Positions 30,560 to 36,343 of a DNA stretch of 40,367 nt are shown here, piece after piece. The notes under the pieces were generated by a model. It was given only the letters and a program-made list of their open reading frames with translations. It was not told the DNA's origin and made no database searches. Where the stretch lies: assembly GCA_913045195.1 (NCBI GenBank), contig CAJWQR010000008.1, forward strand, positions 1 to 40,367. Reading direction: 5' to 3'. The translations under genes were made by a program, and so were the position numbers. The stretch is from an uncultured Legionellales bacterium. Its GTDB lineage: Bacteria > Pseudomonadota > Gammaproteobacteria > Eutrophobiales > Eutrophobiaceae. Numbering within the stretch: the stretch's first letter is position 1; each line of letters starts with the position of its first letter.

Positions 30560-31405
30560 TTAAAAACCCTTTAAAATCTTTATTACTGACGATGTATCTG
30601 GTTTAATCCCATGCCAAATCATAAATGTTTCTGCAGCCTGTTCAACTAACATACCCAAACCATCTACTGCTCCTGAGGCACCATTTTCAATTGCCCATTT
30701 AATAAATATCGTTTCCTTATTTGAATACATTAAGTCATAGCAAAAAGTATTTTCTTTAATAATATTTTTAGATATTGGGGGAAGTTCTGCTGACAAACTA
30801 AGTGAGGTCCCATTAATAATTATATCGAACGAGTCATTTGGAAGAGCATCATATGAGTATGTTTTAATATTTGCTTGTTTATTGAATCTTTTTTCTAGCT
30901 CTTCTGCACGAGAAATTGTCCGATTTGCTATAACGATTTTCTTTGTTTTTTGTAACATCAATCTTTCAAGGATCGATTTAACAGTACCTCCCGCCCCTAA
31001 TATTAAGATCGATTTATTTTCCAATTTAATATTATGATTAATGATTAAATCATTGAGTAATCCCTGACCATCTGTTGTATCACCATGAATATTCATTTTC
31101 TCATCGAATTGAATTGTGTTAACCGAGCCCGCTATTTCAGCTCGATGAGTTAATTTTGTGCACAATGAATAAGCGTCTTCCTTAAAAGGAACTGTGATAT
31201 TTAAACCTTTACCGCCTTGTGATGAAAATAATCCTACATATGAAGAGAGTTTGCCAAGAGGAACCTCGATAGCCTGATAATGCAATTCTACCCCTGTTTG
31301 TTCGGCGAATAATGTGTGTATTTGCGGGGATTTGCTATGTGTTATAGGATTACCAAATACTGCATAATTTGCTAATAAATGGTTATGTATGAGTTCGCTG
31401 ACCAC
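30560..31405 (-). CDS. aroE: Shikimate 5-dehydrogenase AroE
   Basis: AroE reduces 3-dehydroshikimate to shikimate with NADPH in aromatic amino acid synthesis. The substrate site shows Ser24 and Ser26 in HSKSPQIH, Lys75 in NITVPFKEDAY, Asn96 and Asp112. The NADP loop is ILGAGGTVKS (136-144) and the phosphate-recognising ANRTISRAEEL follows. Length 281 is typical. The start is GTG 31405; no ATG lies close, and the ribosome site is weak. It is last in the minus-strand run that begins at the nitrogen genes. Confidence 0.96.
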   Translation of the reverse strand: MVSELIHNHLLANYAVFGNPITHSKSPQIHTLFAEQTGVELHYQAIEVPLGKLSSYVGLFSSQGGKGLNITVPFKEDAYSLCTKLTHRAEIAGSVNTIQFDEKMNIHGDTTDGQGLLNDLIINHNIKLENKSILILGAGGTVKSILERLMLQKTKKIVIANRTISRAEELEKRFNKQANIKTYSYDALPNDSFDIIINGTSLSLSAELPPISKNIIKENTFCYDLMYSNKETIFIKWAIENGASGAVDGLGMLVEQAAETFMIWHGIKPDTSSVIKILKGF

Positions 31406-31442: not shown

Positions 31443-32543
31443 CTAATCGCCTGTGCGTTCGACTAAGCCGCCTTTAAGACAATATACTTGCATACCTCGT
31501 TCACTCAACAAAAAAGCAGCCGCTGAACTGCGGCGTCCACTATCACAATAGACAATATATTTCTGCTTCGAATCCAGTGTTCCTGCTTTTATACGTAAAG
31601 TATTTAGTGGGATATTAATACTCCCTGCTATTCCTGATTCTTTGTGTTCTGACTCCATTCTAACATCAATCCAAGTTGCTGATTTACTTTCCGCCATTGC
31701 GTCAGCTTCTTCTTCAGTTAACCAACTTAGCATTGGCTCTTTTAGTAATTCATTAAAATCTTCTTTTGATAATCGCATTAGTGAACCATCTGTCTCCATA
31801 ACGACATTAGCATTTCGTTTTGTGTCGGAGAGAAGAGCTTCTTCTCCAAACGCATCTCCCACTCCTATAGTAGCTAAAGTTAAAGGCGTTCCTGCTTTTG
31901 AATTTCGCGTAACCTTACATTTACCTTGCTTAATAATATAATAATAATCGCCATCATCGCCTTGTTTAATAATCTCTACACCTGCTTTAGCCGGAAACTC
32001 TTGCATTCGCATAAACATCGCTTGAATGTTTGCTGGGGGTATTTGTAAAAAAGCTTTTGACTGAAGTATACTCGTCATCCAGTCATCTTCTTTACCATCG
32101 CTAGTTTTAATATCAACATCATCTGCATGAATATCAGCTACTTCGATACCAGATAATTGATCCCATGTAAGTAAAATATCAAGCAAGTCACTATCTATTC
32201 TAATAATTGTGCACTCTGTTTTAGCTACTGCCGATTGTTTTCTTGGTTGGCGATTTGCGATAGCATGTTTTGCTTTTTCGGTGCCAGCCTCTACAACGTA
32301 GCCTGCTGGTGTTGTGACATCGCTATCTTTAGGAGAACCCACTGCGAAAGTCGCTGATATTTCAACCTGCCCCTCCACAACATAAACCACTTTTTTGTCA
32401 TGCTCTCCTTCTTTGAAAATTGTTTTTCCTGCGGCAACAGACTCCAAAAAAGTTTTACTGGCTAATTCTTGAAAATTTTCTGCTTTAAGTGCGTCAGCGG
32501 GCACAAATTTTTTTAATATTTTTTTGTCAATTGGCTCAGCCAT
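31443..32543 (-). CDS. Two cyclic-nucleotide-binding domains fused to a rhodanese domain
   Basis: This 366-residue cytoplasmic protein has no signal peptide or DNA-binding domain. The first CNB domain (about 25-135) is degenerate: it keeps GKTIFKEGEHDKK and YVVEGQVEI but lacks the phosphate-binding cassette. The second (about 160-270) has IIKQGDDGDYYYIIKQGKC and a full cassette FGEEALLSDTKRNANV with Arg243, so it could bind cAMP or cGMP. Residues 285-366 are a rhodanese domain with active Cys333 in VYCDSGRRS. The fusion suggests nucleotide-controlled sulfur transfer or a phosphatase-like/rhodanese sensor; function is unknown. It lies between amtB and aroE, behind a hairpin. Confidence 0.88.
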   Translation of the reverse strand: MAEPIDKKILKKFVPADALKAENFQELASKTFLESVAAGKTIFKEGEHDKKVVYVVEGQVEISATFAVGSPKDSDVTTPAGYVVEAGTEKAKHAIANRQPRKQSAVAKTECTIIRIDSDLLDILLTWDQLSGIEVADIHADDVDIKTSDGKEDDWMTSILQSKAFLQIPPANIQAMFMRMQEFPAKAGVEIIKQGDDGDYYYIIKQGKCKVTRNSKAGTPLTLATIGVGDAFGEEALLSDTKRNANVVMETDGSLMRLSKEDFNELLKEPMLSWLTEEEADAMAESKSATWIDVRMESEHKESGIAGSINIPLNTLRIKAGTLDSKQKYIVYCDSGRRSSAAAFLLSERGMQVYCLKGGLVERTGD

Positions 32544-32610
32544 TTAATGCTTTTCCTTCGCTTCGATAGTAAAAGATGTTGTGTATCTCTAATTTGGATT
32601 AAAACTACTA

Positions 32611-32645
32611 CAACCCTACAGCATAAAAATAATGCAGTAGGGTTG
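32611..32645 (-). terminator. Strong hairpin after the first amtB
   Basis: CAACCCTACAGCAT (32611-32624) pairs with ATGCAGTAGGGTTG (32632-32645) at 13 of 14 positions across a seven-base AT loop. It lies 21 bases after the amtB stop on the minus strand, and is followed there by TAGTAGTTTT, a poor U-tract. Likely a terminator or mRNA-stabilising structure between amtB and the CNB-rhodanese gene. Confidence 0.6.
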
Positions 32646-32665
32646 CATATTAAGTCTGAGAAATA

Positions 32666-33943
32666 CTAAATATTGTAACCGCGCTCATTATGCAAAACGA
32701 TATCAAGACCTTCAATTTCTTCGTCCTCTTCAACTCTCAAACCAACCATCATATCTACCAATTTTAAAATAACAAAGGTAATTACAGCACACCATACTAT
32801 GGTTGCAACGACACCAATTGCTTGAACCCCAAATTGAGAAGAAATTGAATAAGCTTCATCAGCAGACTGTAAACCACCATAAGAATTCGAATAAAATACA
32901 GCTGTTAATAAGCAGCCTAGAGCACCGCCAACACCATGCACTGGAAAAACATCAAGTGAATCATCAATTTTTAATCCGCGTTTAATATATTGTGTCGCAA
33001 AATAACACACAACGCCTGCTGAAATACCAATCAACAATCCACCTAATGGTCCGACATACCCTGAAGCAGGAGTAATAGTGCCTAAACCCGCAACCATGCC
33101 CGTTACAATGCCAAGTACAGTCGGCTTTCCTGATCTAACCCACTCACATGTCATCCATGCTAACGAACCAGCGGCGGCAGAGATATGCGTTACTGCCATC
33201 GCCATTCCGGCGCCACTGCCTGACGCTAATGCGCTACCCGCATTAAAACCAAACCAACCGACCCATAACATTGAGGCGCCGGCAACAGTCAATGCCATAT
33301 TATGAGGAGCCATTGGCTTGTCCGGAAAACCACGACGATTACCAAGTACTAGAGCCGCAACAATCGCGCCAACGCCCGCGTTGATGTGAACAACAGAACC
33401 GCCCGCAAAATCCATAAAACCTTTATCAGCAAGCCAACCACCGCCCCAAACCCAGTGGCAGACAGGCGCATAAACGAGAGTCAACCATAACGCACTAAAC
33501 AAAAGTACAGATGAGAATTTCATTCTTTCTGCAAAACCACCGATGATTAAAGCAGGCGTAATAATGGCGAATGTCATCTGAAACATGAAGAAAACAATCT
33601 CGGGTATAGTGCCGCTCATACTATCCATACCAACATCCGAAATCATAAGATTTCCGAGACCAACAATCTGATTGACTGACCCCCCATCACCAAAGGCCAA
33701 GCCATAGGCGAATACCATCCATAATATAGATACTAGGCAAGCAATGGCAAAACATTGCATCAAAACAGATAACACATTTTTTACACGAACAAGCCCCGAA
33801 TAAAATAATGCAAGTCCAGGTAATGTCATAAATAATACGAGCGCAGTAGAGACTAATATCCAAGCGGTATCGCCCGTATCTAATTCATCTGCAAACACTA
33901 CGCCTGGAAATATTGTGATTAATAATATTAAAATACGGTTCAT
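32666..33943 (-). CDS. amtB: Ammonium transporter AmtB (copy 1)
   Basis: AmtB conducts ammonium across the inner membrane. A cleavable signal peptide (about 1-18, ending VFA) precedes 11 membrane helices. The twin histidines occur in GGSVVHINAG and FPVHGVGGALG, the Phe gate in FFMFQMTFAIITPA and WFGFNAGSALA, and the cytoplasmic tail GLRVEEDEEIEGLD matches the part that contacts PII. Length 425 is typical. It forms a pair with the glnK 92 bases upstream. It differs clearly from the second copy in the loops and tail, so it is an old duplicate rather than a recent one. Confidence 0.96.
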   Translation of the reverse strand: MNRILILLITIFPGVVFADELDTGDTAWILVSTALVLFMTLPGLALFYSGLVRVKNVLSVLMQCFAIACLVSILWMVFAYGLAFGDGGSVNQIVGLGNLMISDVGMDSMSGTIPEIVFFMFQMTFAIITPALIIGGFAERMKFSSVLLFSALWLTLVYAPVCHWVWGGGWLADKGFMDFAGGSVVHINAGVGAIVAALVLGNRRGFPDKPMAPHNMALTVAGASMLWVGWFGFNAGSALASGSGAGMAMAVTHISAAAGSLAWMTCEWVRSGKPTVLGIVTGMVAGLGTITPASGYVGPLGGLLIGISAGVVCYFATQYIKRGLKIDDSLDVFPVHGVGGALGCLLTAVFYSNSYGGLQSADEAYSISSQFGVQAIGVVATIVWCAVITFVILKLVDMMVGLRVEEDEEIEGLDIVLHNERGYNI

Positions 33944-34035
33944 TGAGTTCCCCCTCGTTATCCTCGAATGCTTTCCCAGTTACTAATTAATTTTAGCCTC
34001 ATTATAAAATTTAGTTTCCTATTTCTTTTTTTTAT

Positions 34036-34392
<357 letters not shown>

Positions 34393-34417
34393 TTATTATT
34401 TTGAAATAATATAGTAA

Positions 34418-34434
34418 CGCAGTACTTGAACCAA
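34418..34434 (-). promoter_or_regulatory. Possible sigma-54 promoter of glnK-amtB copy 1
   Basis: On the minus strand TTGGTTCAAGTACTGCG has GG and GC dinucleotides at the fixed sigma-54 spacing, and keeps about nine of the 14 defined consensus positions. It would start transcription near 34406, 32 bases before the glnK ATG. No NtrC palindrome was found upstream, so support is modest. Confidence 0.35.
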
Positions 34435-34530
34435 AAATAGTCAAATTTAACTTATTCCCCATGTTGATTTTTAGATTCATATTTAAGGTAATTTGTCTAA
34501 ATAAGAAGATAACCCTTTTAATTTTAGTTA

Positions 34531-34556
34531 AAAAAAACGGGTCCAAAGACCCGTTT
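34531..34556 (-). terminator. Rho-independent terminator after amtB copy 2
   Basis: On the minus strand AAACGGGTC pairs perfectly with GACCCGTTT around a four-base loop and runs into eight or more T. It stands 35 bases after the amtB copy 2 stop and separates the two glnK-amtB transcription units. Confidence 0.85.
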
Positions 34557-34590
34557 AAATGGTAGAGAAGAAAATGTGTAAAGAAACTAA

Positions 34591-35928
34591 CTAGATAATG
34601 TAACCCCTTTCATTATGAGAGTTAACATCAAGACCGCCAACTTCCTCTTCTTCCGTGACACGAAGACCCATAACCGCGTCTAAGACCATCAAGATAATTG
34701 CAGTTAAAACACCCGTATAGATTATCGTGAATAAGACACTCTTCGTTTGAATCCAGATTTGAGTAGCAGTGCTTCCGTCTAAACCCACACCACCCCATGC
34801 AGATGATGTGCAGAGCCCGGTTAAGATAGCGCCGATAATACCCCCCACGGCATGAACTCCAAAAACATCCAGAGAATCGTCATAGCCCATTGCACGTTTT
34901 AATGTCGTTGAGGCAAAGAAGCAACCAGCGCCTGCCGCAACACCAATTAGTAATGCCCCTTGAGGTCCAACAGTACCTGATGCAGGAGTAATTGCGACTA
35001 AGCCGGCAACAGCGCCCGTTATAATACCTAAAACACTAGGTTTACCATGTGCATTCCACTCAACAATCATCCAAGCCAAAGCGGCAGTGGCGGTTGCAAT
35101 CTGCGTCACTAACATCGCCATTCCTGTGGTTGTGTCTGCAGCTAATTCAGATCCGGCATTAAAACCAAACCAACCGACCCATAACATTGAGGCACCAATG
35201 ACTGATAACGTTAAATTATGTGGTGGCATGGCAACTGAAGGATAGCCTTTGCGTTTACCAAGCATAATCGCTGCAACAAGACCAGCAATACCTGCATTAA
35301 TATGAACAACGGTGCCACCGGCAAAATCAATGACACCCCAGTCCCATAATAAGCCACCATCACCGGCCCAAACCATGTGCACCATTGGGAAGTAACAAAC
35401 GGTGACCCAAATCGCTATAAATACCATCATTGTTGAAAACTTCATTCTTTCTGCAAAAGCACCAACAATAAGAGCTGGTGTTATGATTGCGAAAGTTAGC
35501 TGAAAGCTGGCAAAAACTGATTCGGGTATAGTCCCTGACATTGAATCAACCGAAATTCCTTGTAGGAATGTATTACCAAAACCACCAATAATAGAATTCA
35601 AATTAAACACACCGGCTTCCATTCCTGTAGTGTCAAAAGCCATACTATAACCATACACAACCCAAATCACTGTAACTAAGCAGGTTATCGCAAAACACTG
35701 CATCATAACTGAAAGTACATTTTTGCTTCTCACCATCCCGGCGTAAAATAAACTCAGTCCAGGAATAGTCATCATTAAAACTAGTACCGTTGCAGTAATC
35801 ATCCAGGCGGTATCACCCGAATTTAATTCATCGGCTAATGCAAGCGAGGGTGCTAATGAGGTAATAAAACCGAGCGCGACACCTGCTAAGCCTTTCGTGT
35901 TAAATAAAACACCAAATAAACGTTTCAT
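34591..35928 (-). CDS. amtB: Ammonium transporter AmtB (copy 2)
   Basis: The second ammonium channel has a long signal peptide (about 1-36, ending SLALA) and 11 helices. Diagnostic segments are FASFQLTFAIITPA, GGTVVHINAG, WFGFNAGSELA and FGVHAVGGIIGA, with both pore histidines. The tail GLRVTEEEEVGGLD would bind PII. The start is the ATG at 35928, nine bases after AAGGAG; frames that extend to 36015 would run into the glnK gene. Length 445. It is 28 bases downstream of glnK copy 2 and ends before a strong terminator. Confidence 0.96.
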   Translation of the reverse strand: MKRLFGVLFNTKGLAGVALGFITSLAPSLALADELNSGDTAWMITATVLVLMMTIPGLSLFYAGMVRSKNVLSVMMQCFAITCLVTVIWVVYGYSMAFDTTGMEAGVFNLNSIIGGFGNTFLQGISVDSMSGTIPESVFASFQLTFAIITPALIVGAFAERMKFSTMMVFIAIWVTVCYFPMVHMVWAGDGGLLWDWGVIDFAGGTVVHINAGIAGLVAAIMLGKRKGYPSVAMPPHNLTLSVIGASMLWVGWFGFNAGSELAADTTTGMAMLVTQIATATAALAWMIVEWNAHGKPSVLGIITGAVAGLVAITPASGTVGPQGALLIGVAAGAGCFFASTTLKRAMGYDDSLDVFGVHAVGGIIGAILTGLCTSSAWGGVGLDGSTATQIWIQTKSVLFTIIYTGVLTAIILMVLDAVMGLRVTEEEEVGGLDVNSHNERGYII

Positions 35929-35956
35929 TGTTTTCATCTCCTTAAGGAATTTAGGT

Positions 35957-36343
<387 letters not shown>

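Follow-up and report, generated by a model that had tools for sequence, protein, structure and literature searches.

A protein in which two cyclic-nucleotide (CNB) domains precede a rhodanese raises the question of what such a combination does, and of whether its position beside ammonium transport genes bears on its role. The protein is encoded on the minus strand of the window, by which we mean the whole stretch of 40,367 nucleotides from an uncultured Legionellales bacterium analyzed here. Its open reading frame (ORF), at positions 31443..32543, has an ATG start and specifies 366 amino acids. On the basis of the ORF and its Pfam matches we refer to it as CNR, for CNB-CNB-rhodanese protein.

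CNR belongs to a large family in the Gammaproteobacteria

Pfam analysis of the 366-residue protein returned cNMP_binding (108.3 bits, in two stretches, the best at 186-268) and Rhodanese (55.7 bits at 277-361) and nothing more. No DNA-binding domain was found by Pfam in CNR, a C-terminal HTH domain of the CRP/FNR type being among those absent, in agreement with the initial annotation. CNR shares 93% identity with its counterpart in a congener and 62-72% with those in the family's other genera; orthologues were found in 46 of 53 family genomes, and dN/dS against three relatives is 0.07-0.26. The ORF is therefore not a chance one. Judged by these substitution ratios, CNR is under purifying selection. 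The gene is kept in all six genomes of its own genus, which measure 1.0-1.5 Mb. The genus is without the additional, longer CNR paralogues that are encoded in most of the family's remaining genomes.

At a match threshold of E<=1e-20, CNR was present in 170 of 369 gammaproteobacterial genomes drawn evenly from the class (46%). A phylum-wide sample gave matches in 15 of 249 genomes; five of these lie outside the Gammaproteobacteria and cover only the second CNB domain and the rhodanese. A scan of contigs from named organisms yielded seven loci, and a search of plasmid records at E<=1e-15 yielded no CNR homologue. For conservation analysis, homologous domains from 106 loci were aligned in 114 rows. 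In 27 of these rows a longer protein opens with the CNR module and contains a long run of charged, repetitive sequence that resembles a coiled coil. Three loci (L040 7977-13559, L072 8980-14625, and L075 5923-10329) combine the module with very long charged repeats, a hydrophobic segment, and an FGE-sulfatase-type C terminus, the last confirmed by Pfam in L040 and recognized by eye in L072 and L075. In five genomes (L084, L085, L086, L087, and L088) two differing CNB-CNB-rhodanese/coiled-coil paralogues lie side by side, possibly as a heteromeric pair.

Kannan et al. noted CNB-rhodanese fusions in 2007, within their "Other_bacterial" group of CNB domains (PMC2246266), so the architecture itself is not new. 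A literature search for the function of the CNB-rhodanese architecture found no functional study, and the earlier remark that the architecture has no assigned function still stands in the literature searched. As far as we searched, the conservation analysis, the association with cyclases, the neighborhood clades, and the hairpins described below are new.

The rhodanese domain retains a sulfurtransferase-type loop

The rhodanese domain (residues 277-361; 31461..31715, minus strand) scored well above the curated PF00581 cut-off of 22.2 bits and aligned with PspE, the rhodanese domain of a CoA-persulfide reductase, and 3gk5. Active rhodanese loops are of the Cx4R/T or Cx5R type, and (H)Cx5R loops are those of CDC25 phosphatases and arsenate reductases (PMC10135228). 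The catalytic cysteine recognized in the initial annotation, Cys333 (31545..31547, minus strand), was recovered here in 112 of 114 rows and opens the loop C-D-S-G-R-R-S (Cx4R-S). With four residues between Cys333 and Arg338 (C333-x4-R338), this loop is of the Cx4R, sulfurtransferase type by the same rule. Conservation extends to D293 and R295 of the DVR motif (114/114 each), R338 (108/114), and S339 (109/114). These features suggest that CNR probably carries out active sulfur transfer.

The main rival to this reading is that the domain is a sensor or adaptor rather than an enzyme, its cysteine reporting persulfide or redox state or docking partners while cAMP is integrated in signaling complexes. 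Consistent with such a role are the fusion of the module into longer, coiled-coil-like proteins in 27 of the 114 rows, with a C-terminal FGE-sulfatase domain in L040, and the replacement of Cys by Ser in two fused rows (L091 and L098). In addition, solo CNRs of a third clade lie within a signaling cluster (mltD > CNR < GAF-HDGYP, then CHASE2 Ser/Thr kinase, PP2C, FHA, and CHASE2 adenylate cyclase). However, the cysteine is present in all but two rows, Arg338 in 108, and D293 and R295 without exception, which has the look of a retained catalytic loop, and the CNR of the window is a stand-alone protein. We regard the sensor or adaptor role as plausible but unlikely overall; the likelihoods that we attach to this and other readings refer to statements that can overlap.

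The second CNB domain carries an intact nucleotide pocket

The description of one degenerate and one intact CNB domain was confirmed when the two were scored separately in a PF00027 search of the genome, giving 40.5 bits for CNB-A (32178-32444) and 73.3 bits for CNB-B (31737-31988). CNB-A (residues 1-145; 32109..32543, minus strand), delimited by PF00027, the alignment, and modeled beta strands, has a degenerate cyclic-nucleotide fold. Across the 114 rows it is without a canonical phosphate-binding cassette (PBC) and without the PBC Glu and Arg, and it has conserved residues of its own: G58, P100 (113/114), and R101 (104/114). Compared alone with solved structures, CNB-A gave a weak match (E 0.015).

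CNB-B (residues 150-271; 31731..32096, minus strand; FGEEALLSDTKRNANV), defined by PF00027, the alignment, and a fold search, has an intact cyclic-nucleotide pocket. Residues F232, G233, E234, L237, and R243 are invariant in the 114 rows; A236 and A245 are found in 112, N244 in 111, and G198 of the beta2-beta3 loop in 111. The FGE..L motif with its Glu and phosphate-binding Arg is thus present in CNB-B and missing from CNB-A. Glu234 (31842..31844, minus strand) is the predicted ligand of the ribose 2'-OH, a role that we take over from PKA-R by homology. Arg243 (31815..31817, minus strand), the equivalent of PKA Arg209, is the predicted ligand of the cyclic phosphate.

The Arg motif of the cassette is described in PMC2246266, which gives the PBC Arg together with the beta2-beta3 Gly as the signature of cAMP-binding CNB domains. 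Since CNB-B has both, it belongs by these residue criteria to the cAMP-binding class. The residue after the Arg is Asn244, unlike the usual Ala, Thr, or Ser, so that cGMP or another nucleotide may be bound in place of cAMP; the canonical motif list in the same source permits Asn here. Taken with the cyclase association described below, the pocket suggests that the ligand of CNR is probably cAMP.

We also built a structure model from an alignment of eight sequences (the window and related loci). The model (pLDDT 74.7, pTM 0.55) shows two rolls resembling CNB domains along with a rhodanese domain; its confidence is only moderate and its inter-domain geometry unreliable, and the arrangement of the domains is therefore uninformative. 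A full-length fold search of the PDB was led by tandem-CNB entries of PKG and PKA-R, and nucleoside-binding PKA-R proteins of trypanosomatids were among the matches.

CNR co-occurs with adenylate cyclases

A class I or class III adenylate cyclase was detected in 167 of 170 CNR-positive genomes and in 87 of 199 CNR-negative genomes (Fisher odds ratio 72, p 7e-35, a test that ignores phylogeny and genome size). Outside the aroE-linked clade to which the window belongs, a CHASE2 gene resembling class III cyclases is found no more than 9 kb from CNR in 9 of 61 solo rows, where 0.97 would be expected from cyclase density, relatedness reducing the effective number (5 families, 2 clades). Within the window's clade, none of the 26 rows has a class III cyclase-like gene within 9 kb of CNR. 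In a neighboring clade (support 92), CNR is arranged tail-to-tail with a CHASE2 cyclase-like gene at distances of 39 bp (L065), 82 bp (L071), 212 bp (L122), 50 bp (L140), and 3 kb (L145). The K..GD catalytic residues are lost from the neighbors in L071, L122, and L140 (family f2), which by this sign may not synthesize cAMP; these tail-to-tail CHASE2 homologues are candidate pseudo-cyclases. An intact class III neighbor less than 250 bp from CNR occurs in L065 only, and in L070 the tail-to-tail neighbor of CNR, 101 bp away, is an adenylate cyclase of class I. At four loci from three families (L060, L063, L065, and L071) a DsrC-like sulfur-carrier gene is found 0.3-7 kb from CNR; a sulfur-relay link is possible, and the cases are too few to use.

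In the window's own genome (G000) a class I cyclase was not found. One class III cyclase was detected (L161 1468-3150, on contig C16), with the adenylyl-type residues K...GD and D...N...R (KTIGDE...GDAVNVAARM), and the genome also encodes a Crp-like protein. By eye, the L161 cyclase has an FHA-like C-terminal region, and a PP2C-like gene lies alongside, echoing the PP2C-FHA-cyclase cluster around CNR in the third clade. The same genome carries, on contigs C43 and C4, two copies of a module (L162 1-3603 and L164 3372-7797). In it a 4Fe-4S protein of ferredoxin-like type bears one or more fused CNB domains, and after it come a cytochrome b-like membrane protein and a multihaem (CxxCH) cytochrome. 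This module is possibly a nucleotide-linked electron-transfer system in a small genome.

The detection of cyclases bears on whether CNB-B might bind a nucleoside, or a cyclic nucleotide other than cAMP such as cGMP. No class I or class III cyclase was detected in three of the six genomes of the genus, G369 (92% complete), G370 (66%), and G373 (87%), or in G084, G208, and G241. The pocket and Cys loop of CNR are intact in G369, G370, and G373, and G369 and G373 have a Crp-like protein. Either the three congeneric assemblies are incomplete, or they encode another class of cyclase, or the ligand does not come from these enzymes. These genomes, the Asn at position 244 in 111 of 114 rows (where PKA has Ala and PKG has Thr), and the nucleoside-binding trypanosomatid proteins among the fold matches would fit a different ligand. 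Against this, the Glu and Arg are invariant, Asn is admitted after the Arg in the motif list of PMC2246266, and the co-occurrence with adenylate cyclases is strong and includes the cAMP-making class I. A ligand other than cAMP is, on this evidence, improbable.

CNR is probably expressed with aroE and not with amtB

The initial annotation placed CNR behind glnK-amtB and toward aroE; the window indeed reads glnK-amtB-glnK-amtB-CNR-aroE, with every one of these genes on the minus strand. The upstream neighbor is the second copy of amtB (32666..33943, minus strand), preceded by the second glnK (34036..34374, minus strand), and aroE (30560..31405, minus strand) lies 37 bp downstream of CNR. The two glnK-amtB pairs are a tandem duplication (32666-36295) with a terminator-like hairpin between them at 34535-34556. 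Between amtB and CNR lies a strong terminator-like hairpin (32609..32647, minus strand), identified by fold energy; the whole 105-nt segment folds at -26.4 kcal/mol (z -4.2). Neither this hairpin nor the large size of the CNR family was part of the initial annotation.

The window's clade comprises 26 rows from about 12 families, and its placement in the tree is compatible with one origin, the separating branch having low support (33). In it, aroE follows CNR in 24 of 26 rows (gap of -4 to 79 bp where measurable) and glnK-amtB precedes it in 23 of 26. Most of the clade has an amtB-CNR gap of about 100-510 bp with a strong hairpin, the sequence of which varies between species. A clear T-run follows the hairpin in seven loci (L036, L037, L042, L044, L046, L057, and L058), and the tail is weak in the window and in L035. 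The short CNR-aroE gap and the terminator-like hairpin before CNR make CNR-aroE a likely transcription unit. Co-transcription of CNR with aroE is thus probable and with amtB unlikely, the second amtB copy probably being on a separate transcript. The f97 genomes L131 and L133 have an amtB-CNR gap of 37 bp and no strong hairpin, so read-through from amtB into CNR is possible there.

These arrangements also speak to a proposal that CNR regulates nitrogen status together with GlnK/AmtB. The adjacency to glnK-amtB in 23 of the 26 clade rows, the close spacing in L131 and L133, and an amtB directly upstream of CNR in L061, of the neighboring clade, are in its favor. However, the hairpin intervenes in most of the clade, other clades are without amtB, and the whole block (ubiK ... 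ksgA-pdxA-surA-lptD) is conserved, so the adjacency by itself says little about a common function and may reflect inherited synteny. We consider a nitrogen regulator quite improbable. Of the suggested tie to nitrogen flow, the part that holds is that the glnK-amtB adjacency is old and conserved in the clade; the tie itself is weak, since a hairpin mostly intervenes and the tight neighbor is aroE. Free variation of the neighbor genes, named in the initial annotation as telling against its reading, was not seen inside the window's clade, where gene order is conserved, and was partly seen across the whole family, other clades having different neighbors that include adenylate cyclases and the kinase/PP2C/FHA cluster.

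The remaining suggestion, an arsenate- or phosphate-handling enzyme of the Cdc25/Acr2 type, has the rhodanese fold in common with CNR and nothing more, and we reject it as scarcely credible because the loop is Cx4R-S, the Cx5R signature that this activity needs (PMC10135228) is absent from the window's CNR, and the C+6 position holds Ser in 109 of the 114 rows and Ala in the other 5.

A cAMP-responsive sulfurtransferase is the favored reading

The nucleotide-gated sulfurtransferase of the initial annotation emerges as the best-supported reading at the level of sequence, with a conserved pocket and cysteine, a Cx4R loop, and cyclases that co-occur and sometimes adjoin. In the form that we somewhat favor, CNR is a cAMP effector with a persulfide-forming rhodanese output. 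The invariant pocket, C333 in its Cx4R loop, the co-occurrence and adjacency of cyclases, the homology to PspE, the tandem-CNB fold matches, and the retention of the gene in reduced genomes all point this way. As a soluble effector, CNR would bind cAMP in CNB-B, Glu234 contacting the ribose, Arg243 the cyclic phosphate, and Gly198 coupling the beta2-beta3 loop. CNB-A, by analogy with tandem-CNB regulatory subunits, would have lost nucleotide binding and may act as a structural or dimer partner. The end helices of CNB-B (260-271) lead straight into the rhodanese (277-361), and because of this direct junction a ligand-driven movement of the helices could alter access to Cys333 or the docking of a partner there. 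Cys333 would then form a persulfide and hand its sulfane sulfur to an acceptor. Gating of sulfur transfer by cAMP is likely if both premises hold, namely that cAMP is the ligand and that transfer is active. In the window's lineage, CNR and aroE would form their own expression unit outside the glnK-amtB transcript.

To our knowledge, cAMP in these bacteria has been regarded as acting almost solely through Crp. We tentatively raise the broader possibility, as one joint statement, that in about half of the sampled gammaproteobacterial genomes CNR provides a second, Crp-independent cAMP branch that directly controls the transfer of sulfane (persulfide) sulfur, and that its wiring is lineage specific: aroE-linked, placed in a kinase/PP2C/FHA/cyclase cluster, or built into very long coiled-coil/FGE-sulfatase fusions. 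If true, this would be a direct enzymatic branch of cAMP action joining carbon and energy signaling to sulfur trafficking, through a conserved receptor that occurs in 46% of the sampled gammaproteobacterial genomes and survives in a reduced lineage of 1.0-1.5 Mb.

Comparison with known systems

The best sequence and fold matches of CNR are the PKA regulatory subunit and PKG, which like CNR have two consecutive CNB domains, with the PBC motif and the beta2-beta3 Gly in the second. In contrast to these, the first CNB domain of CNR is degenerate and its output is a rhodanese rather than a kinase or the inhibition of a kinase. Mycobacterial Pat, a fusion of a CNB domain to an acetyltransferase, is an enzyme controlled by cAMP without DNA binding, and it shares with our proposal the principle of a bacterial enzyme gated by a CNB domain of its own polypeptide. 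The Pat CNB domain is one of the top partial matches of CNR in NCBIfam (NF058543, 48.5 bits against a family cut-off of 460), although Pat has a different enzyme and a single CNB domain. Single-domain thiosulfate sulfurtransferases of the PspE type have the same fold and a loop of equal length (CNAGRQS in PspE, CDSGRRS in CNR) but are without CNB domains, and CNR scores 40 bits against the PspE cut-off of 102. The fusions of Kannan et al. (2007) have the same domain pair and the canonical PBC consensus; in the available portion of that paper the rhodanese is mentioned as a fused domain only, and neighbors and function are not described (PMC2246266). Finally, Family 2B encapsulins, whose shell proteins carry a CNB domain, provide the best NCBIfam CNB partial match (NF041163), far below cut-off, and differ in the HK97 shell domain that CNR lacks; in the related Family 2A encapsulins, rhodaneses are enriched accessory genes of the cysteine-desulfurase operons (PMC8346489).
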